NCBI RefSeq assembly: GCF_001753245.1
Contig: NZ_CP017415.1
Location: forward strand, 620,001-684,000
From: Acidihalobacter yilgarnensis
GTDB lineage: Bacteria > Pseudomonadota > Gammaproteobacteria > DSM-5130 > Acidihalobacteraceae
DNA: 64,000 nucleotides
Reading direction: 5' to 3'
The notes beneath the pieces are model-generated. The model did no database searches and was not told the DNA's origin. It was given only the letters and a program-made list of their open reading frames with translations. The stretch's first letter is position 1. Each line of letters opens with the position of its first letter. This document shows, in pieces, positions 36,382 to 50,970 of the stretch. The translations under genes were made by a program, and so were the position numbers.

Positions 36382-36400
36382 CTTTGGTTCGGAGGTGGCG

Positions 36401-36979
36401 ATGGGTTCGAGCGTGGAATGGGATGGTTTTACTCGGGTTTTGCACTGGGGGCTGACCCTATTCGTGACCTTTCAGTTATTCAGCGGTCTGTGGATTTCGA
36501 CGCCGGGGACGCTGGTGTACTTCCATTGGCACGAATATGTCGGGTTGGCTGCCGCCGCAGTCATTTTGTTGCATTGGATGTGGAGCTTTACCTGCCGCGA
36601 CCTGGGCATTCTGTTTCCCTGGAATGGGGCCGGCTTCGCGCGTATCGGCAAGGAAACGCGGGGGATGCTGCATGGGCAGGTCCCGGCAGCAGGTCACCAA
36701 GTAGGATTGTCGAGCTTCGTGCACGGCCTGGGTTTATTGGCGATGACCGGCATGGCGGTCACCGGGGTGTTGTTGTTCCTCGTCATCCCCGTGCGTCTTG
36801 GTGGCATGGCAACAGGCGCGCACAGCGGCGCGATCACCTCGCTGTCGCTGATCCACCGCTATCTCTCGTACTTGGCCTGGATCTACTGGGGGGGCCACGT
36901 TGGTTTTGCCTTGCTTCACCAACTGCGGGGAGGGCGTATCCTCGGCGCGATCTTTCTTGGTCGTCCAGAGCATCCTTGA
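36401..36979 (+). CDS. Cytochrome b561-like membrane protein
   Basis: A 192-residue four-helix membrane protein. Histidines in RVLHWGLTLF, YFHWHEYVGL, SFVHGLGLLA and LIHRYLSYLAW are placed as the two haem-b ligand pairs of the bacterial b561/Ni-hydrogenase cytochrome b family. These proteins pass electrons between quinol and periplasmic partners. No partner oxidoreductase gene is adjacent. ATG at 36401 is preceded by GGAGG with a 5-base gap. The gene ends 9 bases from the converging pelG stop. Confidence 0.82.
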   Translation: MGSSVEWDGFTRVLHWGLTLFVTFQLFSGLWISTPGTLVYFHWHEYVGLAAAAVILLHWMWSFTCRDLGILFPWNGAGFARIGKETRGMLHGQVPAAGHQVGLSSFVHGLGLLAMTGMAVTGVLLFLVIPVRLGGMATGAHSGAITSLSLIHRYLSYLAWIYWGGHVGFALLHQLRGGRILGAIFLGRPEHP

Positions 36980-36988
36980 ACAGCGGGG

Positions 36989-38359
36989 TCAGCGTAGCAT
37001 GAAGGTTTCGTAGTCTAGGCGTTCCAGGGTGCGGTCGGTCAGGGTGAGTGCGACCAGTGCGGTGAGCAGCATGGCGGCCGCGAAGCCGTAGCCATAGAAA
37101 TATGGGCCGAGCAGCAGGCTGATGAGGGTAAACAAGGCATTGGAGGCGAACATCAGGAGTGCGATCAGAGCGGCATCGCGCGTTCTATCGAGATAAAACA
37201 GGATATTCAACCCGGCCATCACCAGTAGCTGCAACATGACGCCAAGCGAATCGAGGATCAGCAGTGGCTCGAACAGGGGCGAGATACCGAGCAGGTGTAA
37301 GGCATGACCGCCAAAGACAATCAGGAACAGCAGGGTCATGCCTTGCACCTTGAGGATGCCGAATAACCCCTCGCGCGCGGCGATGACCATGCGCGCACGA
37401 TGATCGCGGATGGCGGAAAGTGCGCCGCCGTCGCGCACCGCGTTGTAATAACGATCGTAGGCGTAGACGAAATCGACTTCCATGCGCAGCAAAAAAACCG
37501 CCATGCCCGGGATAATCGTGAAATAGGCGAGGAATACTGGTGTGTCGTAGATCACGGAGGCATGTAGCGTGCCGATCACGGTGCTCCCCGTGCCCGGCCA
37601 CAGCCAGAACATGAGCTTGTCGATCCACACGCCTAAATTGAAAAATAGCCCGGCGAAAAACAGCCAGCCGTGCAGGCGCCCGGGCACGAAGAAATCGAAT
37701 TCGACGAAACGTGTAGGGGGATATTCGCGCCAGATCAGCGCGAACATACCTACCGCGAGCACGATCTGTCCGAGGACGAAGCCTGCGAGCAGGCCTTCCA
37801 GGCCCCACGGGCGGAGCCACAGGCCACTGGCCACCGCGCTGCCGTAACCCAGTGCGTAGAGCGTGAGTACCGCGCCGTACTGCTTGAGCCCGGAGAGCAG
37901 CACGGTCAGTACCCAGATGACGCACAGTAGGAGTCCACCGAGGATCATCAGGAGGCGGTAGGCGGCGGAGGTTCCCGGTAGTAGCCACAGGCTGGCGGCC
38001 ACCGCGAGCAAAAACGCAGGGGTGAGGGCAATGAACAACATGCCGATCAGATTGGGAATTACGCGCTTGGGCTCCTGCGCGAACAGGCGATCGGCGACGT
38101 AGCGCGTGAAAATGAGCTGTAGCCCGCCGGTATAGATCAGACTCAAGGCGATCAGCCAGGTGACGCTGACCTGAAATTGGGTAATCAGTCCGGGAGGGAT
38201 GACGATTCCAAGGCTCATGAAGCCGAGGATCAGGATGGCGAGAATGGACAACACCCAGGGCCCAGAGCCGATTACGCCGGCATAGGTATAGGCGCGTAGC
38301 AGTCCAAGATAGGTTTCGCTGTCCGCCAGACGGCGCAGCTCGAAGCCGATACCCGCCAT
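36989..38359 (-). CDS. pelG: Pel exopolysaccharide transporter PelG
   Basis: A 456-residue inner-membrane protein with about twelve hydrophobic segments. The start MAGIGFELRRLADSETYLGLLRAY is diagnostic of PelG, a relative of Wzx flippases. In the Pel system PelG pairs with PelD and PelE to form the synthase-transport complex with the glycosyltransferase PelF. It is the last gene of the operon; its ATG overlaps the pelF TGA (TGATG). No anomaly is seen in length or sequence. Confidence 0.93.
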   Translation of the reverse strand: MAGIGFELRRLADSETYLGLLRAYTYAGVIGSGPWVLSILAILILGFMSLGIVIPPGLITQFQVSVTWLIALSLIYTGGLQLIFTRYVADRLFAQEPKRVIPNLIGMLFIALTPAFLLAVAASLWLLPGTSAAYRLLMILGGLLLCVIWVLTVLLSGLKQYGAVLTLYALGYGSAVASGLWLRPWGLEGLLAGFVLGQIVLAVGMFALIWREYPPTRFVEFDFFVPGRLHGWLFFAGLFFNLGVWIDKLMFWLWPGTGSTVIGTLHASVIYDTPVFLAYFTIIPGMAVFLLRMEVDFVYAYDRYYNAVRDGGALSAIRDHRARMVIAAREGLFGILKVQGMTLLFLIVFGGHALHLLGISPLFEPLLILDSLGVMLQLLVMAGLNILFYLDRTRDAALIALLMFASNALFTLISLLLGPYFYGYGFAAAMLLTALVALTLTDRTLERLDYETFMLR

Positions 38360-39855
38360 CAGTCGGTCTCCATGTGCTCGCGGAACAAGGCGTCGAAGGT
38401 TTCGATCATTCGATCCTTGTCGTAGTAGCGTTCCGCGCGGGCAATGGCGGCCCGCGAGGCCTGCGCGTAAGCTTCCGGGTCGTTCAACAAGGATAGGCAG
38501 GCGTCGGCCATGGCCTCTGGATCGGCCAATCCCACGATGCGGCCGGCTGCCCCGAGCGCCGGCACTTCATCCGGGCGTCCGTGGATGAGCTCGGGGCAGG
38601 CGCCCACCTCGGTTGCCACCATCGGCAGCCCGGCTGCGAAGCCCTCGATGGCAGCCAGTGGTAGACCCTCGCTGATCGAACTCAGTACTAGGAGTCCGAC
38701 CTTGGGCAGAATGTCTTCAAGGTAACGGAAGCCCAGAAAGCGGACGTGTCGTCCAAGGTCGAGAATTTCCACCAGTTCGTGGCATTCGGCGCTGTATTCG
38801 GGATCTTCGTCTTCCGGTCCGACGATCCAGGCTTCGATGTCTGGGCGCTGGTCGCAGAGTATGCGGGCCGTGCGAATGTAGGTCTTGATGTCCTTGATCG
38901 GCACGACGCGCCCCAGGAGGCAGATCACGGGTGGCGGTGGCCCGGGTGGACGGCGTAGGCGGGCCAAGCGTTCGATATCGATCCCGTTGGGAATGATACG
39001 CGTGCGCTCGTCTGCCGTACCATCTTGGATTTGCTGGCGGCGGGCGGCTTCGAACAGGCTGATGATCGGGTCGGCGCCTTGGTAGGCTTGCCGTCCGAGC
39101 ACCTCGAAGAAGCGGACCCACAGCTCGCGCAGGTAGCTGACTTCGGTCTGATCGCGCTGGAGGATGTTGCGGCTATCGCGTATCCAATCCGCCTTCATGA
39201 GATCGATACGGCGTTCTTTGGTGTAGATGCCGTGCTCCATCAGCACGAAGGGGCGTGATTGCTCTCGTGCGGCGAGTGTGGCGAGGAAGCCTGCATAGCC
39301 GGTGGAGGGGCTGAAGAACAGACGTGTACGCGGGAGCGCGGCTGCGGTTCTGGCGAGAATCCACAGTGGCGTATGCAGGTTGCGCACGTTCCAGAAGTAG
39401 TCGACGAAGGAGGGTTCGGCGGCAACGGTTTCGTATTGCTCGGTGATGTAGTCCCAGGCGGTTTCGCTGTAGAGGAATGCGCGTTCGCCAAAGGGGCCTG
39501 TCTCGTCCAGATAAGCCTCCAGCGGCAGAGGGTCGTCGTGCCCCGCCCGCAGGTTGGTGTGCAGCTCTGCCATGCGTTCGCCTGCCTGCGCAGGCAGGCG
39601 TGGCGGTTTGATCGACGGTGGTTGATCGGCGGGATTGAAGAGGTAGTGGGCTTCCAGATGGACGAAGTTGGTCGGCAGCTCATAGAGAATGTCGCCGTAA
39701 TCCTCGCGGCGGGAACCGAGGAAGATGCCGGCGAAACGCAGATGGGGCAGGCCACTGATCAGCTCATGCACCCAGCTCGACACGCCGCCCTTGATATACG
39801 GGTAGGTGCCTTCGAGCAATAGGGTTACATCGATGTCCGGGTCTGTGTGGGTCAT
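38359..39855 (-). CDS. pelF: Pel polysaccharide glycosyltransferase PelF
   Basis: A 498-residue GT4-type glycosyltransferase. It starts DIDVTLLLEGTYPYIKGGVSSWVHELI, the PelF N-terminal signature. IPNGID and CLLGRVVPIKDIKTYIRTA span the donor-site fold, and SSISEGLPLAAIEGFAAGLPMVATEVGA is the C-terminal nucleotide-binding segment with the EGLPLAAIE motif. It polymerises Pel, a partly deacetylated GalNAc-rich polymer, in the cytoplasm. ATG at 39855 overlaps the pelE stop by 4 bases. Upstream in-frame residues belong to the overlap only. Confidence 0.94.
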   Translation of the reverse strand: MTHTDPDIDVTLLLEGTYPYIKGGVSSWVHELISGLPHLRFAGIFLGSRREDYGDILYELPTNFVHLEAHYLFNPADQPPSIKPPRLPAQAGERMAELHTNLRAGHDDPLPLEAYLDETGPFGERAFLYSETAWDYITEQYETVAAEPSFVDYFWNVRNLHTPLWILARTAAALPRTRLFFSPSTGYAGFLATLAAREQSRPFVLMEHGIYTKERRIDLMKADWIRDSRNILQRDQTEVSYLRELWVRFFEVLGRQAYQGADPIISLFEAARRQQIQDGTADERTRIIPNGIDIERLARLRRPPGPPPPVICLLGRVVPIKDIKTYIRTARILCDQRPDIEAWIVGPEDEDPEYSAECHELVEILDLGRHVRFLGFRYLEDILPKVGLLVLSSISEGLPLAAIEGFAAGLPMVATEVGACPELIHGRPDEVPALGAAGRIVGLADPEAMADACLSLLNDPEAYAQASRAAIARAERYYDKDRMIETFDALFREHMETD

Positions 39856-40823
39856 GAGAGCGGTGCCCAGCGTTTGACGACGCGTCCGACGACCGGCAGT
39901 TCGGTGAACAATGCGCTGCGCGCGAGTAGTGCACGTATGGCGGGATAGTCGCGTCTGCGCCATGCGATTTCGGCCAAATAAGGCAACACGCGTGCTGGCG
40001 GCGCACCCGCTTCAAGTGCACGAGCATAGGTGTCTGCGGCCTGGACTGGATGACCTGATTGTTGCATCAGGCGCGCCTCGATGCGTAGTAGTCGCGGTGT
40101 TTCGCCTATCACCTCGCGTGCGGCATCGAGATGGCGCCGACTGGCTTGCAGGTGCAACCGCGACATGCCCTCGCGCACAAGGCCCATGTACAACAGTTCC
40201 TGATGGAGCTCAGCGAGTTCGAGGCGCAGTGTTCCCTGCGTACGCTCCACCGTGTGCGGTACCGCGCCTTCGAGGCGTTTGATCATGCGTGTGATGCCGG
40301 CCTCGCGCCGGTCGATCAGGGCGTGTGCGAGGAGACGCAGGTGCTCGTCGGGGTGGCGCAGGGTTTCGCGCAGCAGCTCGGTGGTATTGGCGCTGCGTTG
40401 GCTTTCGATGGCCATCAATGCGCGTGAACCTTGAGCGGAGCCTGGGTCGAGATTGCGCAGTCGGGCGATGGCGCCGCCGACGCCGAAGTGACCTGGCTCG
40501 CTCGGGATCTCCGGCGCGAATGTCGGTGCGCTCAGATGTCTGGGTAGCTGTGGGACGCGCGCCTTTTCCAGCCGCGGGAGCACGAGCAGCATCGCGAGCA
40601 GAAGCAGGGGGCCTAGGATCGGGATCAATGCCCCCATCGCGGTCAGGGTGGCGTAATCGATGACCGGCAGCCCTCTGAGTTTCGCCGGAATGAGGCGTCT
40701 GGCCGGCAGGGCGATCAGCAGGCTAAGCAGTGTGTTGATGAGTAGCAAGGTGAGAACGAGCTGCTCGGGCGCGGTGGTTTGCGGTGAGAGCCAGGCGCCC
40801 AGCGAAAACAGGGACGCATTCAT
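39852..40823 (-). CDS. pelE: Pel biosynthesis membrane protein PelE
   Basis: A 323-residue protein with two N-terminal membrane helices (about residues 20-80) and a cytoplasmic helical-repeat domain containing TPR-like motifs such as RHPDEHLRLLAHALIDRREAG and DTYARALEAGAPPARVLPYLAEIAWRR without a full consensus. This is the layout of PelE, which holds the PelD-PelE-PelG complex at the inner membrane. Recognition rests partly on position between pelD and pelF. Start and stop overlap both neighbours in ATGA form, so translation is coupled. Confidence 0.88.
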   Translation of the reverse strand: MNASLFSLGAWLSPQTTAPEQLVLTLLLINTLLSLLIALPARRLIPAKLRGLPVIDYATLTAMGALIPILGPLLLLAMLLVLPRLEKARVPQLPRHLSAPTFAPEIPSEPGHFGVGGAIARLRNLDPGSAQGSRALMAIESQRSANTTELLRETLRHPDEHLRLLAHALIDRREAGITRMIKRLEGAVPHTVERTQGTLRLELAELHQELLYMGLVREGMSRLHLQASRRHLDAAREVIGETPRLLRIEARLMQQSGHPVQAADTYARALEAGAPPARVLPYLAEIAWRRRDYPAIRALLARSALFTELPVVGRVVKRWAPLS

Positions 40824-42139
40824 GCCACACGCTCCTGGCTTAGTATCGTTTGCAGCGTGATGTCAGGGTCGGCATTGTCGATGGCGCGTATTTCGGCAGT
40901 CCAACCGGTCTCGTTCAACGGTGTGCCTAGCTGTTCGCGTGATAGAGCGTCGACTCGGGTGACGAAGCCGCTGGCGGCCGTTGGGCCGCTCAGTGGCAGC
41001 AGCGCGAGCAGTCCCGGTGCAGCCTCGTCCAGTGGGTTCTGCCAGTATTGATCGAGGCCCCGACGTACCGAGTGAATCAGCGGTAGTACGTTGAGATTGG
41101 CATGCGGGTCGATCGGTCGGAACAGTACCAGCGTTGAATGTGCGCCAACCCGAGACCATAGGTGGCAGATTTTGTACAGTTCGTGCGCGAAGGCGGCGGG
41201 ACAACGTGGGTGGTGACGCAACAGGCCACCGATGTCGCGCTGAGCGGCGGCCTCGTCGGCGAAATACTCCAGGATGGCGGTGGCGGTCAGCAGGTTTTCC
41301 TCGTCCAGCGCGAGCAGGGGCATATCGCTGACCGCGAGCAGGCCGATACGCACGCCGTCGGCCGCGATGATCGGAATGGCGAGCCGGTATTCTCCCGCGA
41401 GGCCATCAATGATTTGGTCGACGCTGAAATAGGCGGCATCCTCGCGTTCCAGGGCGAGGGACACCAACGGGTCATCCGGGTTGAAGCGGATGTCCTGGCC
41501 CAGGCGGGCGACCGGCGTGGGGTCGAGGCGCGCGCCTTCGAAGACATAGAGTGCGGCGGCTTCCAGGCGGCAGTAGTGTGCGAGTAATTGGAGCAGCGCC
41601 TGACCTGCCGTCTGGTTCAGGCGTGCGCCATTGAGCTGCAGCTCGGCGCGCACGGCCTCGAGAGCGCCGCGCAGGCTGACGGGACGCGTGATCAGCGTTT
41701 CCTCCAGTCGGTCGTGCGAAATGCGGGTGACGTAGAACGCGCGAGTCAACGACTCGAGGCGGTTCTCGCTGTAAATCAGCCGCGCCTCGGCTTGGCCGAG
41801 ACGGCCGTGCCATAAATTGGCGTATTGCCCGCCGATCAGGCTGATGATCATGCCGCCAACGATCTGAGGCATGGGCATGGCCTCATCGCCGAGTCCCAGT
41901 TCAGGTAGCCACAGGCCGCCGACGGCCATAATGCCGCTGGAGACCAATGCCGGGCCTATCCCGTAGCGCAGGCCAATCAGCAATGGCACCAGCCATAGCC
42001 AAGGAAATCCGCCGGTGGTGAAGGGATTGGCCGGCGAGAGCAGATGACCCAGCCAGAGGGTCACTAGCGGTAGCAACAGGATTTCTGCGATGGGACCGGG
42101 GCCAAGTGTGCCCAGACGGATGGGACGGCGCTCGATCAT
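40820..42139 (-). CDS. pelD: Cyclic-di-GMP receptor PelD
   Basis: A 439-residue inner-membrane protein. About four helices in residues 15-110 are followed by a GAF domain (about 150-310) and a degenerate GGDEF domain. The sequence RRGLDQYW places R360-x-x-D363 exactly as the RxxD c-di-GMP-binding site of Pseudomonas aeruginosa PelD, so allosteric activation of Pel synthesis by c-di-GMP should be conserved. No GGDEF signature remains. Start overlaps the pelC stop. This protein ties the many GGDEF/EAL genes of the window to Pel output. Confidence 0.93.
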   Translation of the reverse strand: MIERRPIRLGTLGPGPIAEILLLPLVTLWLGHLLSPANPFTTGGFPWLWLVPLLIGLRYGIGPALVSSGIMAVGGLWLPELGLGDEAMPMPQIVGGMIISLIGGQYANLWHGRLGQAEARLIYSENRLESLTRAFYVTRISHDRLEETLITRPVSLRGALEAVRAELQLNGARLNQTAGQALLQLLAHYCRLEAAALYVFEGARLDPTPVARLGQDIRFNPDDPLVSLALEREDAAYFSVDQIIDGLAGEYRLAIPIIAADGVRIGLLAVSDMPLLALDEENLLTATAILEYFADEAAAQRDIGGLLRHHPRCPAAFAHELYKICHLWSRVGAHSTLVLFRPIDPHANLNVLPLIHSVRRGLDQYWQNPLDEAAPGLLALLPLSGPTAASGFVTRVDALSREQLGTPLNETGWTAEIRAIDNADPDITLQTILSQERVA

Positions 42140-42669
42140 CAGGGTAGTAAACGGTCGAGCAGGCGGTTGAGCGTCTGCTGTGCGAGTACGGCGATGCCTT
42201 CACGACTGCCGCCCGTGGCGGCGGCCGTGCCACTCCAGAGCGTGTGCCCATTGTCGAGATCGACGAGGCGCAGGGTGAAGCCAACCGCCGGCTGGCCGTC
42301 AAGACCGATCTTGTACCGCCACTCATCGACGCTGCCGAGTAGCGCGTAGCGCAAGTGTTGCGCGCGCGCCCAGGCCAGTGCCGCTGCTTGATCTGCCTCA
42401 CCGTTGTGGACCGGCAGTGCGGCGTTGTCGGCGGGTGATGGCGGTTGTTGCACTCGGTCTATGCGATGGCTGATGAGCAGTGCGGCGAGCATTTGCTGAG
42501 CTCTGGCGCCGGCATAGGGCGTCGCGGTGTTGTTGACCAGGACGGGTACGGCCCAGCCAGCGCTATCGCTCATGGCGGGTCTCGGGCTGGTATACAGGCT
42601 GCGCGTCGCGCAACCGGAGAGAACGAGCAGGCCGCAGAGGGCAAGCAGGCCGAGGATCCGTGATTTCAT
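42139..42669 (-). CDS. pelC: Outer-membrane lipoprotein PelC
   Basis: A 176-residue lipoprotein: signal MKSRILGLLALCGLLVLSGC with a lipobox cysteine at residue 20. The mature part includes NNTATPYAGARAQQMLAALL, ALLGSVDEWRYKIGLDGQPAVGF and LDNGHTLWSG, the pattern of PelC. PelC makes a dodecameric ring on the periplasmic side of the outer membrane that funnels Pel towards PelB. It starts 18 bases after pelB and overlaps pelD. Confidence 0.92.
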   Translation of the reverse strand: MKSRILGLLALCGLLVLSGCATRSLYTSPRPAMSDSAGWAVPVLVNNTATPYAGARAQQMLAALLISHRIDRVQQPPSPADNAALPVHNGEADQAAALAWARAQHLRYALLGSVDEWRYKIGLDGQPAVGFTLRLVDLDNGHTLWSGTAAATGGSREGIAVLAQQTLNRLLDRLLP

Positions 42670-42687
42670 GGGCAGGCGTCCTTATTT

Positions 42688-45481
42688 TCAGTTGACTGGT
42701 TTGAAATAGTAGCGATAGGCCAGGGTGAATGTTTGGGTGACACCTCCGGCAGCGCCCAGATTGGTGCCCAGCTGCAGGCCGATCGAGAAGTGATCTGGGC
42801 CGAGCAGCGGTAGGGCGATGCCGGCGGTTGTCGAGTAGCCAGGGCCATAATCGGTGTTGGCGCATACGCTGGCGTTGAGAAACGGGCGCAGTTGCGACGT
42901 GTAGTCGACCTGATAGCGATCGTTGAATCCGCCACCGGCACAGGCCTGGACGTAGCTGCGCGGGACGAAGAACCCGATGGCGGGTGTTTGTCCTGGCGGC
43001 ACGAGCGTCGTCAACTGCGCCGGCAGGTGCGCTGCGTGGCCATATTGGGCGCCGCTGATGCTTGCGCTAATCCGATAGTTCGGAGGTGACAGCCAGAATT
43101 GGTGATCGAAAGCTAGGCTGAAGGCGGCGGTACTACCCAGATATCCACCGCCCTGAGCTCGGTATTCGCCCAGATGCAGGCTCCCCCAAGGCTGTCACGC
43201 GCCGTGAGGGCATAGCTGCCGTCGAGGCCGATTCGGTCTTCTAGTCCACCGAGTTGCAGGGGGATGCTGGCCGTGGGTATGGCGCCGTAATCCACAAGCA
43301 CGGAGGTGGACAGGCGGCGGCTCCAGCGATGATCCCAGCGCGCGCCGGCCTGAAGATAAGTGTCCAGATTGCGTCCCCCCCGAGGCTCAGCGAGGCGCTG
43401 CCGCGTGGCAGCGTTCGAGTGAGGTTCAGCGAGCCTTGTCGGCTCCAGCCAGGGATTGTACCGAGCTGCGTGTGGTCATAGATGGACTGCATGCCCGCGT
43501 CGATATTTCCAGTCAGCGACAGGCCTGAGCTCAACCAGTGCCGGGCGCTGAGGCGCGTGCCGACCACGCTCAGTCCGCTGGCACGCATCAGCGAGCCGGT
43601 CGCGCCGAGCGTATCGCTGCCCCCGAGCGCAAGTGGGCGGAAGCTTTGCTGCCAGCGGTCTGTATTCGGGGTGCCGCGCATGCCGTCGAAGACAAGCTGA
43701 GTGGCCAGTGGCGTCCAGCCGAGGCCTTCGGCCGCGCTGGCGGCATCCTGTCGAGGCAAGGCATTCAGGTCTCGCGACAGCAGCTGCGCCTGGGTCGATG
43801 CATCGTCTGTTTTGAGTGCCAAAGACAGGCGTGCCCAAGCGGGTATAGGTGTGTCGGCATAGGCTTGTCGCTGCCAGGACTGTGCGGCGCCGATGTCGTC
43901 ATTTTGTAGCGTCCAGCCGAGCACTTGCTCGCGTGCACGAGCATCCTGCGGGTGGCGCGCGAGCCTGGCAACCCAGCGATAGGCCGGGTCGCCAGGCAGC
44001 AGGTGAGTGGCCAGTGATGCGAGCAGGCGTTGTCGATGTCCGATGTTGGCGGGTTCGGTGGGGTTTACGGCCAATGTTTGTAGAGCGGCGCGGCGCAGAC
44101 GCTGGGCGAGTTGCGGGTAACCGGCCAGCGCGATTGTGTCGGCGTAGTCGCTCAACCAAGCCGGGTCGCGTGAATGTTTGGCCCATATCCGGTTCAGAAA
44201 GGGTAAGGCGTCGTCGGGTTGCCCGATCAGCCCGAAACCCGCCGCCAGTGGTGCCCACAAGGCTGGCCGGCTGATCGCATGCGCCGCCAGGCGGGGGAGT
44301 AGGGCGCGCAGGCGTGTCTGATCGCTGGCGTCGATCAACATCCATAAATCGTCTGCCCACAGTCGGTCGTCATCCGGGCGTAGGGCCATGGCCTGCGCGT
44401 AGGCGCGTTGCGCGAGCGCCATCCGACCTTGACTGGCGTGCAGCATCGCGAGACTGGTCCAGTACAGCGGATGCTGGCCGAGGTTCTGCGTGTCGATCTT
44501 GTTGAGGTGAGTAAAGGCCTGTCGCAGCCAAGCCGGTTTATTGGCTGCGTTGGCGACTGAAAGGGCAGCGAAGAACAGCGAGGATTCATGTGTGTGCCGC
44601 CAACCCGCCAGCGCGATCTCGAAGGCGCGATGCGGTTCACTCGCGAGATGGATCAGATAAAGCCGCCGATAGTCGTCCGGGTCGGCGGTGTTGGCCTTGT
44701 AAAGGACTTCGCTGGCTTGCCTCGCAACCGGATAATCCTCAAGCAACCAGGCCAACCCGCTCAGCGTTCTCCAGTAGGCCGTGTCCTGTGGCGTTGCCTG
44801 CACGCGTGCAGCTTTTAGACTGGTGTAGGCCTTCTGATAATCGCCCTGCAGGTACTGCAGCGTCGCGATTTGGAGCATGACCTTGGGTTCCGGCCCATAT
44901 CGGCGTCGGTAGATATCCAGTGTCTGTAGTTCGTGTCCGGGTTCGCCCATCTGCTGGTACAGGACGACTTGCTCCCAGAGGAAAAAACGTCTGGGGTGCT
45001 GGCGATCGGCCACCTGCAGTAGTCGTAACGCCCGTGGGTACTCGCCGAGTTTGAGCAGTTCGCCAAGCGTGGCTATCCAGCGCTCTTCGCTGTATGGACG
45101 CAAACGCAGCGCCAGTAACATCAGCGGTACCGCCCTGCTGGCGTCGTTGAGTCCTGAGGCCAGGTTCAGTGCCTTGTCGAGATATTCGGTTTGTCCGGCG
45201 TGCATGATCAGCCAGTCATAAGCGCCCAAAGCGGTGCCTGGATGCCCACTCTGCTCAGCGGCCAGCGCGAGCCGATGGCGCCACTGCACACTGCGCGGCT
45301 GGGCCGCGACCGCTGCGCGGGCCAATGCGTAGGCGGCTTGAATATCGCCGCCGCCGAGAAATGCCCGCCACGCGAGATTCCAGTCGCTCGATTCATAGGG
45401 CCGTGTAGGCATGATCTGGGACTGCGCGAGCACCGGGATCAGGATAAACAGCAGGCCGGCTCCTAGACGGGCGTGCCTCAT
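42688..45481 (-). pseudogene. pelB: Outer-membrane exporter PelB (TPR and beta-barrel), two frameshifts
   Basis: From ATG 45481 a signal peptide (LGAGLLFILIPVLAQSQ) precedes some 550 residues of TPR-like repeats and then a beta-barrel. The frame breaks twice in the barrel: at the seven-C run 43375-43381 and at the five-C run 43183-43187. Adding one base to each run restores a continuous barrel: GGGRNLDTYLQAGARWDHRWSRR, then LGGSLHLGEYRAQGGGYLGS, ending RYYFKPVN. PelB exports Pel through the outer membrane, with the TPR part binding PelA. Restored, the protein is about 930 residues, shorter than the roughly 1190 of Pseudomonas aeruginosa PelB, because the N-terminal part is a separate gene just upstream. 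Under-called homopolymers are more likely than true loss. Confidence 0.85.
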
Positions 45482-46386
45482 GGCCCGGACTCGGGCAAGC
45501 CGACGAGAAGGCGAGCGTAATGCGCGGCGAGCCGAGGTTGATTGGCGGACAGCGCGAGTCGGGTCATGCGGCGCCACAACGAGCGGTCTTGGTGCATTCC
45601 GGGTAGCAAGGTCCTGGCCGTTTGCAACGCGATATCTGGCCGCCCAGCGGACAAATATGCCTCGACAACGGCATCGAAGGCCTTGCGTCGCTGAGCCGGC
45701 GAATCGGCAAGTTGGTACCAGCTTTGGGCATAGCGCGCGGCCGATCCGGGCTTGCCTGCCTGGATGCTCAGATGGAATAGCGTGCGCCATAGCATGGCCG
45801 ATGGGGGCATCATGCGCTGTGTTTCGCGTATGGCAAAGCGAAGCGCTGCTTCAGGGTCGCCCGATGCGAGAAGGCTGTCGATACCGAGCCGAAAGGCGGA
45901 TGTTCTGTCGCGCGTCGTCGTGGCGCGGCGCAACACCTCGCTGCTGAGCGCGACGGCGGTATCGTACAGCCCTAGCCCAAGGCCGATCCGTGCCTGGGCG
46001 AGGAGGTCTGGTAGCGGCAGCAGTGGTGCGGCGCGCATGACGCTGCGTCGATAGCGCGCGATGGCGTCCCGGCGAGCCGCGGAATCGGGTGCGGTGGCGA
46101 GCAAGGCGACCTTGTGTATCGTCAGGCGTAGGGAGACGATGGCCGTGGAGGCACCGATCGCCCCATCAGGCCAGGGGGCGAGCGCCCGCTCGGCCAAGGT
46201 CAGGTTCCCCGCCTGTAAGGCCTTGCGCGCGAGCAATATATGCAGTGCTTGATCGCCGGGGCTGGCATGGGTCATAAGCGTCAGGTAGGCCAGCGTGGCG
46301 GCGGTCACGGGCGCATCCTGGGCGAGCTGGCGGTCCAGACTGGCCTTGGGAAAGAGGAACACGAAGGCGGCCAGCGTTCCCGTCAA
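45478..46386 (-). CDS. PelB N-terminal part: membrane-anchored TPR protein
   Basis: A 302-residue protein. A hydrophobic anchor opens it (TGTLAAFVFLFPKASLDRQ), then helical repeats of TPR type (ILLARKALQAGNLTLAERAL, AYLSAGRPDIALQTARTLL). The start FPKASLDRQ...LAYLTLM resembles the N-terminus of full-length PelB. The stop overlaps the start of pelB (ATGA), so in this organism PelB is divided into an inner-membrane-anchored TPR piece and an exported piece with its own signal peptide. The start is uncertain: TTG at 46386 lies within the anchor, and no ATG exists before the pelA stop codon in the same frame. Confidence 0.72.
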   Translation of the reverse strand: MTGTLAAFVFLFPKASLDRQLAQDAPVTAATLAYLTLMTHASPGDQALHILLARKALQAGNLTLAERALAPWPDGAIGASTAIVSLRLTIHKVALLATAPDSAARRDAIARYRRSVMRAAPLLPLPDLLAQARIGLGLGLYDTAVALSSEVLRRATTTRDRTSAFRLGIDSLLASGDPEAALRFAIRETQRMMPPSAMLWRTLFHLSIQAGKPGSAARYAQSWYQLADSPAQRRKAFDAVVEAYLSAGRPDIALQTARTLLPGMHQDRSLWRRMTRLALSANQPRLAAHYARLLVGLPESGP

Positions 46387-46422
46387 TAGGGCCGCTGAAA
46401 ACCAGGCGAAGCCAGCCGCTCC

Positions 46423-49323
46423 CTAGCGGCGAGGGCAGGCGAAGGCGATCTTGGCACGGGACTGTTTGATGCGGTAGTGAGTGAGGTGCTGCTGCGTTTG
46501 CCCGTGAATCGGGCGTCCGTCGGCGGTGACCTTGCATCGGGCGGCATTCGCTAGCGTGAAGGAAAGCGGGGTCGCTGTGGCGGCCAGCATGATCCGCATG
46601 CCGTCGGGGTTGCTGCCGAGGCTCTGGATCAAGCCATTGGCGCTCTGCAGGTATGTCATTGCAGCTGGGTGCTGCGTTAGGACGAGTCGGGCATTGTCGC
46701 CAGGGCCGAGATGGATGTAGCGGATATCGCCGTGATCGTCGAAGCCGGCGATATTGCGGCTGGTCGCTATGTCGGGGTAACCCATCGCGCTCGGAATGCG
46801 CAATGTCTGGTCCTGACCGTAGCCGCGGATCAGGAAGCCATTGCCGTCGCGGGCGATCGCAGCTTGTTCGAAGCCGAGCGCGATATGGGAATAGGTGGAG
46901 GGAAATACGGGTGTGGTTTTCTGCGCAAGTGCCCAGCGATAAACCGTCTGCAGAGAGTTGAGGGCGCAGGTGCGAGCACCGGAATAGAAGTGGTAGTAAA
47001 TATCGATGGGCGCTAGTCGGCGTGGCCGGTCCGTCATTTCGAAGGTCTGGATAACCTTGCGATAACCGCAATAGGGAGGCTGCCAGCCATTGGTATAGGT
47101 ATCTTCGTTGGCGTCCGGGGCGAATACCTGGAAGTGCGCGCCCTTCCAAACGCCCAGTGGGGCGACGTTGGTGAGTGACGGGCGGGCGTGATCGATATTG
47201 CTGTTGAGCCCATTGATGTTCATTACGCCGGCCTTGTATGCCAGCGCTAGCACCTCCGCGTTGGGATCGGTGTCGCCAGACCATTGGATGATGCGGACAT
47301 GCTTGCCGGGAGGCGCGAGCAGTCGATTGATGATGTCGATCGCGCCAGATATTTCCATATGCGGGTCGAAGCGATAACCCGGTACCGGCAGGTTATATCC
47401 GTATTTGAGGCCGAGGGTGCGTACATAGCCGCGTTCGTCACGCACGTCCTTACCCAGATGCAGGCCGGCCGAGAGGCCGGGATCGCGCTCCAGTGCGGGC
47501 CAGTCGAAGGGGTGTGAATAGGTATGTGAACCGATTTCGATCCAAGGGAGTTTGAATGTCTTTCGGGCCACGGGGCGCAAGCGTGCCACCTCTTTGGGGG
47601 GGTATAGCCCATCGTCGCTGAACTCGGAGGCAATCACCGAGGCGGAGGTTGGCACCCGGAAGCGCTTGAGTATCTGATCGAGGATCACCTGGCCCGCTAA
47701 TTGATCCCGATAGCGATAATCCCAGGACTTGGAGCCGAAGCCGTCGCCATCGATCTGGGCGAACAGCAGCCGACGCCCGCTTGCCGTGGTGGTGTCAGGG
47801 ACCGGCATTGATGGCAGGTGCAGGGCGGCGGCCAGGAAGCGGAAGGGATTGAGGACCCAACTGCTTTGGCGCATGTTGTCAGGCAGATTGCCTTGCGGCA
47901 GCGTACGTACTACGTAGGGCGTCAGGGCATAGCCACCCCAGGGAGTCAGGGCGACGGCGGTTTCGTTGTGCCCACCGACCGAGATGTCGAGCAACGAGCG
48001 TCCGTGTTGGAGTGATAGCGGCAGGAAGTTCGGCGCGCTTGGCAACACGGACCCCTCGAAGCCGACGAAGGCGTCATCCGCATGCACAATGTGTGCTTTG
48101 AGCAGGCCGGCCGGCGATGCCGAGACATCCAGACCCAAAGGGGCGAGATGCGCCGCGTCCATGGGGAAACCGAACTGTCCAAGCAGCGCGACGGGTACGC
48201 CTGCGGCCATCTGCCGGCGCAGCCAGGCATAGACCTTGCCCGCATTGGCCAGGTCGTCGGTATTGAACCATGTGACGATGCCAGCGACTTGGCCGGTGAG
48301 CAAGCCATCCGGCAGCGGTGTTTTCGACACATCGATTGATCGTGTGGCATAACCCATATGATTGAGCGGCATGGCCGCATACCAGTTGGCATTGTTATGC
48401 ATGGCGTCTTCGTCGCCGGAGTACAGCAGTAGGACGCGGCGTGGCAATACCCGCACGGTGCTGGTGCCGACGATATCGAGTGACGCATTGGTTACGTAGG
48501 GCACGATGCCGTCGGCTTCGATGCGCTTGGCGTCCAATTCGGCCGCTTGTTGCCGATTTGGTGGGAGATAGTCGATGGCGATGGATACTAGGCCGGACTT
48601 ACGCACCGCCCGGAGCTGACCGAGCAGCCATTTCGTATCGTCCGGCTTGACGGTGACATAGCGTTGCCGCGCCTGATCCCAGCCTTGGTACAGCGATTCT
48701 GCAGCCACGCCGACCACGCCCACGTCTTGCAGAGCGGGCAGTAGTTCGAATCCGCGGTTGAGGATAAAGGTCGCGCGGGGGTCGAGACGTCGTATGTCAC
48801 GGATCAGCGCGACGAGGCCACTGCGGTATGCTGCCTGGGCGTCTGATTGCTTGAGCGTTAGTCGATAGCTGTCGAGCGTGTCCAGGAAGAACCCGTTGAA
48901 ACCGCGTGCGAGCAAAGGCTTGATGACCCGGTCCAAATAGAACTGCCGGCATATAGTGCTGGCCTGATCGACAACCCAGCTATTCCAAGGGGCATCGGTC
49001 CCCAGGTGACAACTGGCCGGTAGTGATGCCGCTAGGGGCGATGCTTTGCCCATTTCACCGAGCGAGACGTAGGCGAAATAGCGTGTATGGGCGGTGTCTG
49101 CCTGGCGTGGATCGACATCAGAATAGGGCTGAACCACGACCCAGTCGAAAGATTGCAGGACATCAACTGGCGGGTGGGGGCCATAGAAGAATGCCACGCT
49201 TGGTTGTTGCCCTGCCGCTGCCCAGGCCGGCAAGCCGCAAAACAGCCATGCCAGTAGTATGATGATCGATGTGATTTTGACGGGCGTCGGCATCGCTTTT
49301 TTGTGTCGGCTCGATTGCGGCAT
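46423..49323 (-). CDS. pelA: Pel deacetylase/hydrolase PelA
   Basis: A 966-residue periplasmic protein. Signal sequence ITSIIILLAWLFCGLPAWA ends near residue 36. An N-terminal glycoside-hydrolase region follows (SVAFFYGPHPP, GFNGFFLDTLDSY, the GH166-type domain). The deacetylase module has IDGDGF near residue 525 and the metal histidines in HTYSHP near 599-603. A C-terminal beta-rich part closes it. PelA trims and partly deacetylates Pel in the periplasm, giving the polymer its positive charge. It is the first gene of the operon. ATG at 49323 leaves almost no ribosome-site space after a large inverted repeat; ATG at 49293 is an alternative. Confidence 0.93.
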   Translation of the reverse strand: MPQSSRHKKAMPTPVKITSIIILLAWLFCGLPAWAAAGQQPSVAFFYGPHPPVDVLQSFDWVVVQPYSDVDPRQADTAHTRYFAYVSLGEMGKASPLAASLPASCHLGTDAPWNSWVVDQASTICRQFYLDRVIKPLLARGFNGFFLDTLDSYRLTLKQSDAQAAYRSGLVALIRDIRRLDPRATFILNRGFELLPALQDVGVVGVAAESLYQGWDQARQRYVTVKPDDTKWLLGQLRAVRKSGLVSIAIDYLPPNRQQAAELDAKRIEADGIVPYVTNASLDIVGTSTVRVLPRRVLLLYSGDEDAMHNNANWYAAMPLNHMGYATRSIDVSKTPLPDGLLTGQVAGIVTWFNTDDLANAGKVYAWLRRQMAAGVPVALLGQFGFPMDAAHLAPLGLDVSASPAGLLKAHIVHADDAFVGFEGSVLPSAPNFLPLSLQHGRSLLDISVGGHNETAVALTPWGGYALTPYVVRTLPQGNLPDNMRQSSWVLNPFRFLAAALHLPSMPVPDTTTASGRRLLFAQIDGDGFGSKSWDYRYRDQLAGQVILDQILKRFRVPTSASVIASEFSDDGLYPPKEVARLRPVARKTFKLPWIEIGSHTYSHPFDWPALERDPGLSAGLHLGKDVRDERGYVRTLGLKYGYNLPVPGYRFDPHMEISGAIDIINRLLAPPGKHVRIIQWSGDTDPNAEVLALAYKAGVMNINGLNSNIDHARPSLTNVAPLGVWKGAHFQVFAPDANEDTYTNGWQPPYCGYRKVIQTFEMTDRPRRLAPIDIYYHFYSGARTCALNSLQTVYRWALAQKTTPVFPSTYSHIALGFEQAAIARDGNGFLIRGYGQDQTLRIPSAMGYPDIATSRNIAGFDDHGDIRYIHLGPGDNARLVLTQHPAAMTYLQSANGLIQSLGSNPDGMRIMLAATATPLSFTLANAARCKVTADGRPIHGQTQQHLTHYRIKQSRAKIAFACPRR

Positions 49324-49659
49324 TATTTATTCCAATCAACCACGAACTGCTGATGGTTGATTGGAATAGTAGGTTGAATTATGCGTCAAATCAGCTGCTT
49401 TTGGGAGTTTGCGATCCGGCCTGATTGAAAACGGCGGCCTGCTGGCTTTCATGTTACAATTACGATGTTTGTCGAGATGCGGGGCTGTATCCGTATCGCG
49501 AGTACCAGCAATCACGCCCGTATGGTGACTTAGGCCGGTACCGTCAAACCGGTCGCGGTCTGCCTTCTGCCAGGGCCATTCCCCGATTATTCGTAATTCA
49601 GTGCCGGCGTTTCGTACGCGGCCATGCCTTGGCGATTTTGTCCCTTCAAGGAGTTCTTC
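49324..49659. promoter_or_regulatory. Divergent spacer between pelA and rhlE
   Basis: About 336 bases separate the divergent pelA and rhlE starts. Next to pelA is the AT-rich block with the inverted repeat described separately. The rhlE side (about 49440-49659) is a GC-rich leader of up to 200 bases, with TTACAATTAC near 49455 as a possible -10 region. AAGGAG ten bases ahead of the rhlE ATG is clear. No further gene is seen. Confidence 0.5.
49328..49368. promoter_or_regulatory. 15-bp-arm inverted repeat immediately upstream of pelA
   Basis: TATTCCAATCAACCA (49328-49342) pairs perfectly with TGGTTGATTGGAATA (49354-49368) across 11 bases. On the minus strand it ends four bases before the first pelA ATG. 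In RNA it would form a strong stem directly over the ribosome site; in DNA it could be a dimeric regulator site. It is far too close to the ATG to be a terminator of anything upstream. Confidence 0.75.
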
Positions 49660-50970
49660 ATGTCATTTTCAGACCTCGGCCTGTCGGCCGCCGTTTTGCG
49701 TGCCGTCACCGAGCAGGGTTATGAAACACCCACCCCGATTCAGGCCCAAGCCATCCCAGCCGTGCTTCGCGGCAAGGATTTGATGGCAGGAGCCCAGACC
49801 GGCACCGGTAAGACGGCTGCCTTTACGCTGCCGTTGCTCGACCGTTTGATTGAGGGCGCCCAGGGCGGCCCGCGTCGTGTACGTGCCTTGATTCTGACCC
49901 CGACGCGCGAACTGGCGGCTCAGGTGCAGGACAGCGTGCGCGTCTATGGTAGCCAGTTGCCGCTGCGTAGTGCGGCGGTGTTCGGCGGTGTCGGTATCCA
50001 GCCGCAGATTTCCGCGTTACGTCGCGGTGTTGACATCCTGGTTGCTACGCCAGGCCGCTTGCAGGATCACTTGGATCGCGGCACCGTCGATCTGTCCAAG
50101 GTCGAGATTATGGTGTTGGACGAGGCGGATCGCATGCTCGACATGGGATTCCTGCCAGCCATCGAGCGCATTCTGCGCAGTGTTCCCGAGCGTCGTCAGA
50201 CGCTGCTGTTCTCCGCGACTTTCGCCGGCCCGATTCGGCAACTTGCCGGGCGCTTCCTGCGTGAGCCGGAGATGATTGAGGTTGCGCGTGCCAACGCAAC
50301 GACCGAGGCCGTGACGCAGGCGGTATATCTCGTGGACCATGCGCGTAAGCGCGAGCTGCTGTCCTACCTGATCGGTTCACGCAATTGGCGCCAGGTACTG
50401 GTGTTTACGCGGACCAAGCGCGGCGCCGACCGATTGGCCATGAGCCTAGCCAAGGACGGCCTGTCGGCTGCAGCGATTCACGGCGATAAGAGCCAGGGCG
50501 CGCGTACGCGCGCGCTAAAGGACTTCAAACAACAGTCCGTTCGGGTGTTGGTTGCCACCGATGTGGCGGCGCGAGGGCTGGACATCGATCGCCTGCCGTA
50601 TGTGGTCAACTATGAATTGCCGGATACCCCAGAGGATTATGTGCACCGTATCGGACGCACCGGCCGTGCCGGTGAGCGGGGCGAAGCGCTGTCGCTGGTT
50701 TGTGCCGACGAGTCGGAGCAGTTCCGTGCGATACAGCGGCTGATCAGCATCCCACTGCCTGTTTCAACCGTTGATGGCTTCGAGCCGGAATCGTCCTTCG
50801 ACCCGAATCGGGCCCCGGGCAAGCCGGCCGCCAAGCGTGGCGCAGGTAACAATAAGGTGGTTGCACGACGTCGCCCATCGCAGGATAGCCAGCATCCCCG
50901 TGGTGAGCGTAGTCGCCCGCAAACCACTGGAAAACCCGGTTCGCCGCGAGCACGACAACGCCGAGCATGA
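49660..50970 (+). CDS. rhlE: ATP-dependent RNA helicase RhlE
   Basis: A 436-residue DEAD-box helicase: [16 protein letters not shown]...[14 protein letters not shown] (Q motif), [44 protein letters not shown], and a short basic tail (RARQRRA). The sequence start and lack of a DbpA domain identify RhlE. It assists ribosome assembly and RNA turnover. ATG at 49660 has AAGGAG ten bases upstream. It is divergent from pelA across a long leader. Confidence 0.94.

Follow-up and report, generated by a model that had tools for sequence, protein, structure and literature searches.

Known RNA thermometers are imperfect stems, weak enough to open close to physiological temperature, and a 5'-terminal stem-loop of the ompA kind can stabilise an mRNA. 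In Pseudomonas aeruginosa, the psl leader has an RsmA-linked stem that covers the SD sequence (PMC2984543), and RsmN binds the pelA transcript and represses its translation (PMC6061880). RsmA of the same species reaches pel indirectly through vfr, the leader of which has an SD-blocking stem, and loss of RsmA leaves the stability of pelA mRNA unaltered (PMC7705225). Template switching has been described as able to produce perfect stems in a single event (PMC8794818). A literature search for a hairpin in a pelA leader found no paper on one, a search on Acidihalobacter found nothing on a pel leader, and the accessible text of a study of pel in Acidithiobacillus has nothing on the leader (PMC5852609).

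The inverted repeat upstream of pelA

The window (the whole stretch of Acidihalobacter yilgarnensis DNA that was analysed, 64 kb) contains a perfect inverted repeat upstream of pelA, with 15-bp arms (49328-49342 and 49354-49368, 15/15 complementary), a spacer of 11 bases (49343-49353) and four bases (49324-49327) between it and the first ATG of pelA (49321-49323). A sequence-only reading of the window had described these arms, this loop and this distance from the first ATG, and all of its coordinates are correct. As pelA is on the minus strand, the 5' arm in the transcript is 49354-49368 and the 3' arm is 49328-49342. The features of the locus, with reference to a congener designated G002, are as follows.

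49354..49368, minus strand: 5' arm of the repeat as transcribed with pelA, 15 nt; has an aligned counterpart in the G002 leader
49343..49353, minus strand: spacer or loop, 11 bases; in the predicted fold, a 16th pair (U-G) reduces the loop to 9 bases
49328..49342, minus strand: 3' arm, 15 nt, with an SD-like GGA at 49331-49333; within a 33-base block missing in G002
49378..49383, minus strand: CATAAT, candidate -10 element; common to G002
49321..49323, minus strand: first ATG of pelA (ATG1); within the block missing in G002 or on its border
49291..49293, minus strand: second in-frame ATG of pelA (ATG2), codon 11; some two codons upstream of where the GTG start of G002 aligns
46423..49323, minus strand: pelA, 966 codons from the first ATG, with a GH114 domain; heads the pel cluster; 75% identical in G002
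49624..50970, plus strand: divergent DEAD-box RNA helicase gene, rhlE-like; on the far side of the intergenic region

Among the perfect inverted repeats of the window that have loops of 3-25 bases, none is as long as this one, the next-longest having 13-bp arms. The genomic background was sampled in 20 stretches of 20 kb each from the same genome (400 kb in all), which contained 18 repeats with arms of at least 12 bp, two of them with 15-bp arms; mononucleotide shuffles of the sample gave no arms longer than 11 bp. The pelA-leader repeat is beyond chance, and it is rare in the genome, where others of its kind exist at about one per 150-200 kb. Each of the other two 15-bp-arm repeats in the sample has an ORF of at least 150 codons no more than about 200 bases away.

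The pel cluster and its integrity

The whole pel cluster lies on the minus strand within 36395-49623, headed by pelA, between the helicase gene and a small membrane-protein gene that we take to be b561-like. The genes pelD and pelG were named by Pfam, and the other pel genes by position, by glycosyltransferase or TPR domains, or by similarity to G002. Another congener, G001, has the small membrane-protein gene directly adjoining the helicase gene with no pel genes, so that the cluster was either gained elsewhere or cleanly lost in G001.

In place of a single pelB (42688-46386, minus strand) there are two genes that overlap in an ATGA at 45478-45481, the first encoding a TPR part with a membrane segment and the second a signal-peptide TPR-porin part. 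The same ATGA overlap is present in G002, and two ORFs are also found in genome G003 and at pelA locus L007. Compared with G002, the second pelB gene (the porin part) has two frame changes, at approximately 43376-43379 and at 43188-43201 on the minus strand. In G003 and L007 the corresponding region is covered by long open frames; the frame of G002 is also broken, at another position. The frame breaks of pelB may be sequencing errors or decay; if real, they may compromise the secretion of Pel, in which case fine control of pelA would be of less consequence.

Comparison with relatives

The family and the order, as represented in the genome set, consist of the same five genomes, three of which possess a full-length pelA: the host, G002 (75% identity to the host, same genus) and G003 (59%). 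In G004 the match to pelA is no more than partial, and in G001 there is none. In G002, pelA is divergent from the rhlE-like gene as in the host, and 312 bases on the rhlE side align at 83%; in G003, pelA is located away from the helicase gene. Between the shared sequence CTCGACAAAC and the start, the leaders of the host and G002 align with a score of 59.5 versus a shuffle mean of 36.4, a score reached by 0/500 shuffles. The alignment contains one 33-base gap in G002, which takes in the loop, the 3' arm and the first ATG of the host. The 5' arm aligns with G002 sequence outside this gap, and an exact reverse-complement copy of the 5' arm lies in the missing block. The sequence-only reading had named a lack of conservation of the arms in close relatives as a result that would refute it, and this was the outcome in the only congener with pelA (1/1, G002).

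The frame upstream of the GTG start of G002 has no ATG, GTG or TTG, and this GTG is located about two codons after the position of ATG2 in the host (ungapped comparison by eye). CATAAT and the start are 55 apart in G002; in the host, ATG1 lies at a distance of 54 from CATAAT and ATG2 at 84. The G002 leader (L064) has a 7-bp inverted repeat of its own (ACAAATG / CATTTGT) immediately upstream of the candidate -10 element, which is not found in the host window.

The hairpin structure is not present in G002, G003 or L007; G003 and L007 have no perfect arms of at least 7 bp in the 450 bases upstream of the match. Leaders were scanned at 49 of the 56 loci where PelA was found (those with a cut or partial match, L008, L033, L034, L048, L052, L057 and L061, were left out). 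Query residue 11 served as the approximate start, and only perfect arms were counted, so that imperfect hairpins would be missed. Perfect arms of at least 9 bp lie over the start in 0/49 leaders and further upstream in only one (L055, well upstream).

Copy number and possible DNA-level functions

The exact repeat is present in a single copy in the genome and has no match in the 368 other genomes of the class (369 searched, including the host), and the leader sequence has no match in plasmids. A dispersed palindrome or MITE was rejected because of the single copy. That the arms are the terminal repeats of a small mobile element, left behind after internal loss, is hardly credible: the block missing in G002 resembles an insertion and the repeat has TA at both of its outer ends, but the single copy already largely refutes this origin, the 368 other genomes contain no copy, the leader has no match in plasmids, and only one of the arms falls within the 33-base gap, the 5' arm being alignable with G002.

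The sequence-only reading had also remarked that the repeat, as DNA, would suit a dimeric regulator. A perfect dyad just downstream of a candidate -10 element is what might be expected of an operator beside the pelA promoter, bound by a dimeric transcription factor. However, this would be the only such site in the whole genome, where there are just two other half-site matches with up to two mismatches; it is missing in the congener despite the same gene order, and no regulator or other transcription factor gene was seen among the neighbouring ORFs. An operator therefore appears very unlikely, and neither the genomic copy and half-site counts nor the neighbouring ORFs gave evidence of a cognate regulator.

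Predicted folding and accessibility of the start codons

Folding of 101 bases around the repeat gave z = -3.67 on the plus strand, which is not the strand of the pelA transcript. For the transcript strand, the predicted free energy of the stem is -20.7 kcal/mol at 37 C, against -11.6 kcal/mol at 60 C; folds predicted from 20 to 60 C all contain this stem, closed. The suggestion that a temperature change might open it is contradicted by this prediction, and an RNA thermometer was rejected as a candidate: the stem is too stable, with no predicted melting in the physiological range. An intrinsic terminator was rejected as well, since no T-rich tract follows the arms on either strand and two terminator-like matches lie elsewhere. 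Covariance models of known Rfam RNA families had 0 matches at E values up to 1 in 49150-49700.

ATG1 has a single SD-like GGA (49331-49333), which is paired in the stem and has a predicted unpaired probability of about 0.001 at 37 C. Clearing the ribosome footprint of ATG1 (-20..+15) is predicted to cost 27.8 kcal/mol. For ATG2, the predicted cost is 15.34 kcal/mol with the hairpin versus 15.23 kcal/mol in a transcript started after the hairpin, and this near-equality indicates that the hairpin is not what burdens ATG2. Both starts have weak SD pairing (-3.3 kcal/mol for ATG1, +0.3 for ATG2), compared with -2.1 for the GTG start of G002, -5.9 to -7.8 for pelC, pelE and pelG of the same cluster, and 0.4 for pelD. 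Thus the proposal that the stem buries the pelA ribosome site stands in part: it may hold for the GGA of ATG1, if transcription starts upstream of the repeat, but not for ATG2, which is unhindered by the stem and nearer to the aligned start of the congener. The GGA of ATG1 is the reverse complement of a TCC in the 5' arm, so that its being covered would be a by-product of an inverted duplication.

The stem may nevertheless act as a regulated gate that hides the ribosome site of ATG1 until a protein or small RNA (for example, of the RsmA/CsrA or Hfq type) opens or locks it, as proposed for P. aeruginosa psl. The covered GGA and the high cost of clearing the ATG1 footprint are consistent with such a gate, as are the SD-covering stem-loop of the psl leader (PMC2984543) and the response of P. 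aeruginosa pelA translation to RsmN (PMC6061880). We consider it unlikely, however, because the hairpin is missing in the congener, only 1/49 of the pelA leaders scanned has perfect arms of at least 9 bp, and these are away from the start, and no Rfam family matches. Nor is there an obvious alternative partner with which a perfect 15-bp stem could switch. The only GGA is situated in the stem rather than in a loop, unlike the RsmA sites that are described (PMC2984543).

If CATAAT is the -10 element, transcription would begin approximately 0-3 bases before the stem, and an ompA-like 5'-terminal stem-loop might then stabilise the pel mRNA by hindering attack on its 5' end. As the principal role of the repeat this is quite unlikely: the stem is not conserved, and a two-hexamer promoter scan found no promoter and did not pick up CATAAT.

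Origin of the repeat

On balance, it is probable that the repeat is a lineage-specific inverted duplication of the template-switch type, which provided the pelA leader with a hairpin whose effect is constant and not switched; as the one close relative with the gene is without the hairpin, an accident of local copying, constant in effect, is more likely than a conserved regulatory switch. A template switch during replication would have copied the 5' arm in reverse, most likely in one step, and from the reverse copy the leader would have obtained its second arm, its loop and a new ATG. The resulting transcript would have a very stable hairpin at or near its 5' end, which would close the weak ribosome site of the new ATG1 and leave initiation mainly to ATG2, and which may also shield the 5' end of the pelA mRNA. 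The analysis establishes the sequence itself, the missing block in the congener, the predicted stability and the unaltered predicted accessibility of ATG2; we infer the mutational mechanism, a gain over a loss, the transcript start, the start codon that is used and any effect of the hairpin on expression.

A loss of the block in G002 would be as possible as a gain in the host, since only one congener can be compared and no outgroup aligns in the leader: G001 is without pel and G003 has pelA elsewhere, so that neither serves as an outgroup. An extension of the inverted copy beyond 15 bp to take in the CATAAT region is weak, 290/5000 shuffles scoring as high. Against the use of ATG2 as the start, ATG1 has the better SD-like pairing, and its distance of 54 from CATAAT matches the 55 of G002. 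If ATG1 is the real start, the stem would be a serious block, and selection for the stem would be possible.

It is conceivable, if improbable, that one replication error in one species installed a new start codon, its own SD-like sequence and a hairpin locking both, so that pel output is set by competition between a locked ATG1 and an open ATG2. There would then be two N-termini of PelA, and in one of them the stretch preceding the signal peptide would be longer. The locus would be a newly arisen translational control element, with the sister species as a record of how it came about.

Under the inverted duplication that we favour, a hairpin that acts would be a regulatory hairpin that arose in one lineage, in one mutational step, before a biofilm operon, and the sister species would show the state without it. 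If the hairpin is inert, it would be a caution that a perfect stem which covers a start codon need not be a switch, since a reverse copy of TCC always supplies a hidden GGA.

Comparison with known systems

Like RNA thermometers, the pelA leader has a stem over a ribosome site, but the stem is predicted to be closed up to 60 C. Like the psl leader, it precedes an exopolysaccharide operon and has a predicted stem that pairs an SD sequence of the first gene, here the SD-like GGA of ATG1; the psl stem, however, is imperfect with a protein site in the loop (PMC2984543), whereas here the stem is perfect, the loop contains no GGA and the congener is without the hairpin. The control of P. aeruginosa pel by RsmN and by RsmA through vfr likewise is post-transcriptional (PMC6061880, PMC7705225), although the accessible text of these papers describes no comparable hairpin in those systems, the SD-blocking stem of PMC7705225 being in vfr. 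Template-switch mutations are a further comparison, although in the pelA leader only one relative aligns, so that the switch points cannot be fixed. The resemblance to such mutations, of the quasipalindrome type, lies in a perfect reverse-complement copy that is located a few bases from its source and is present in one lineage but not in its relative (PMC8794818).
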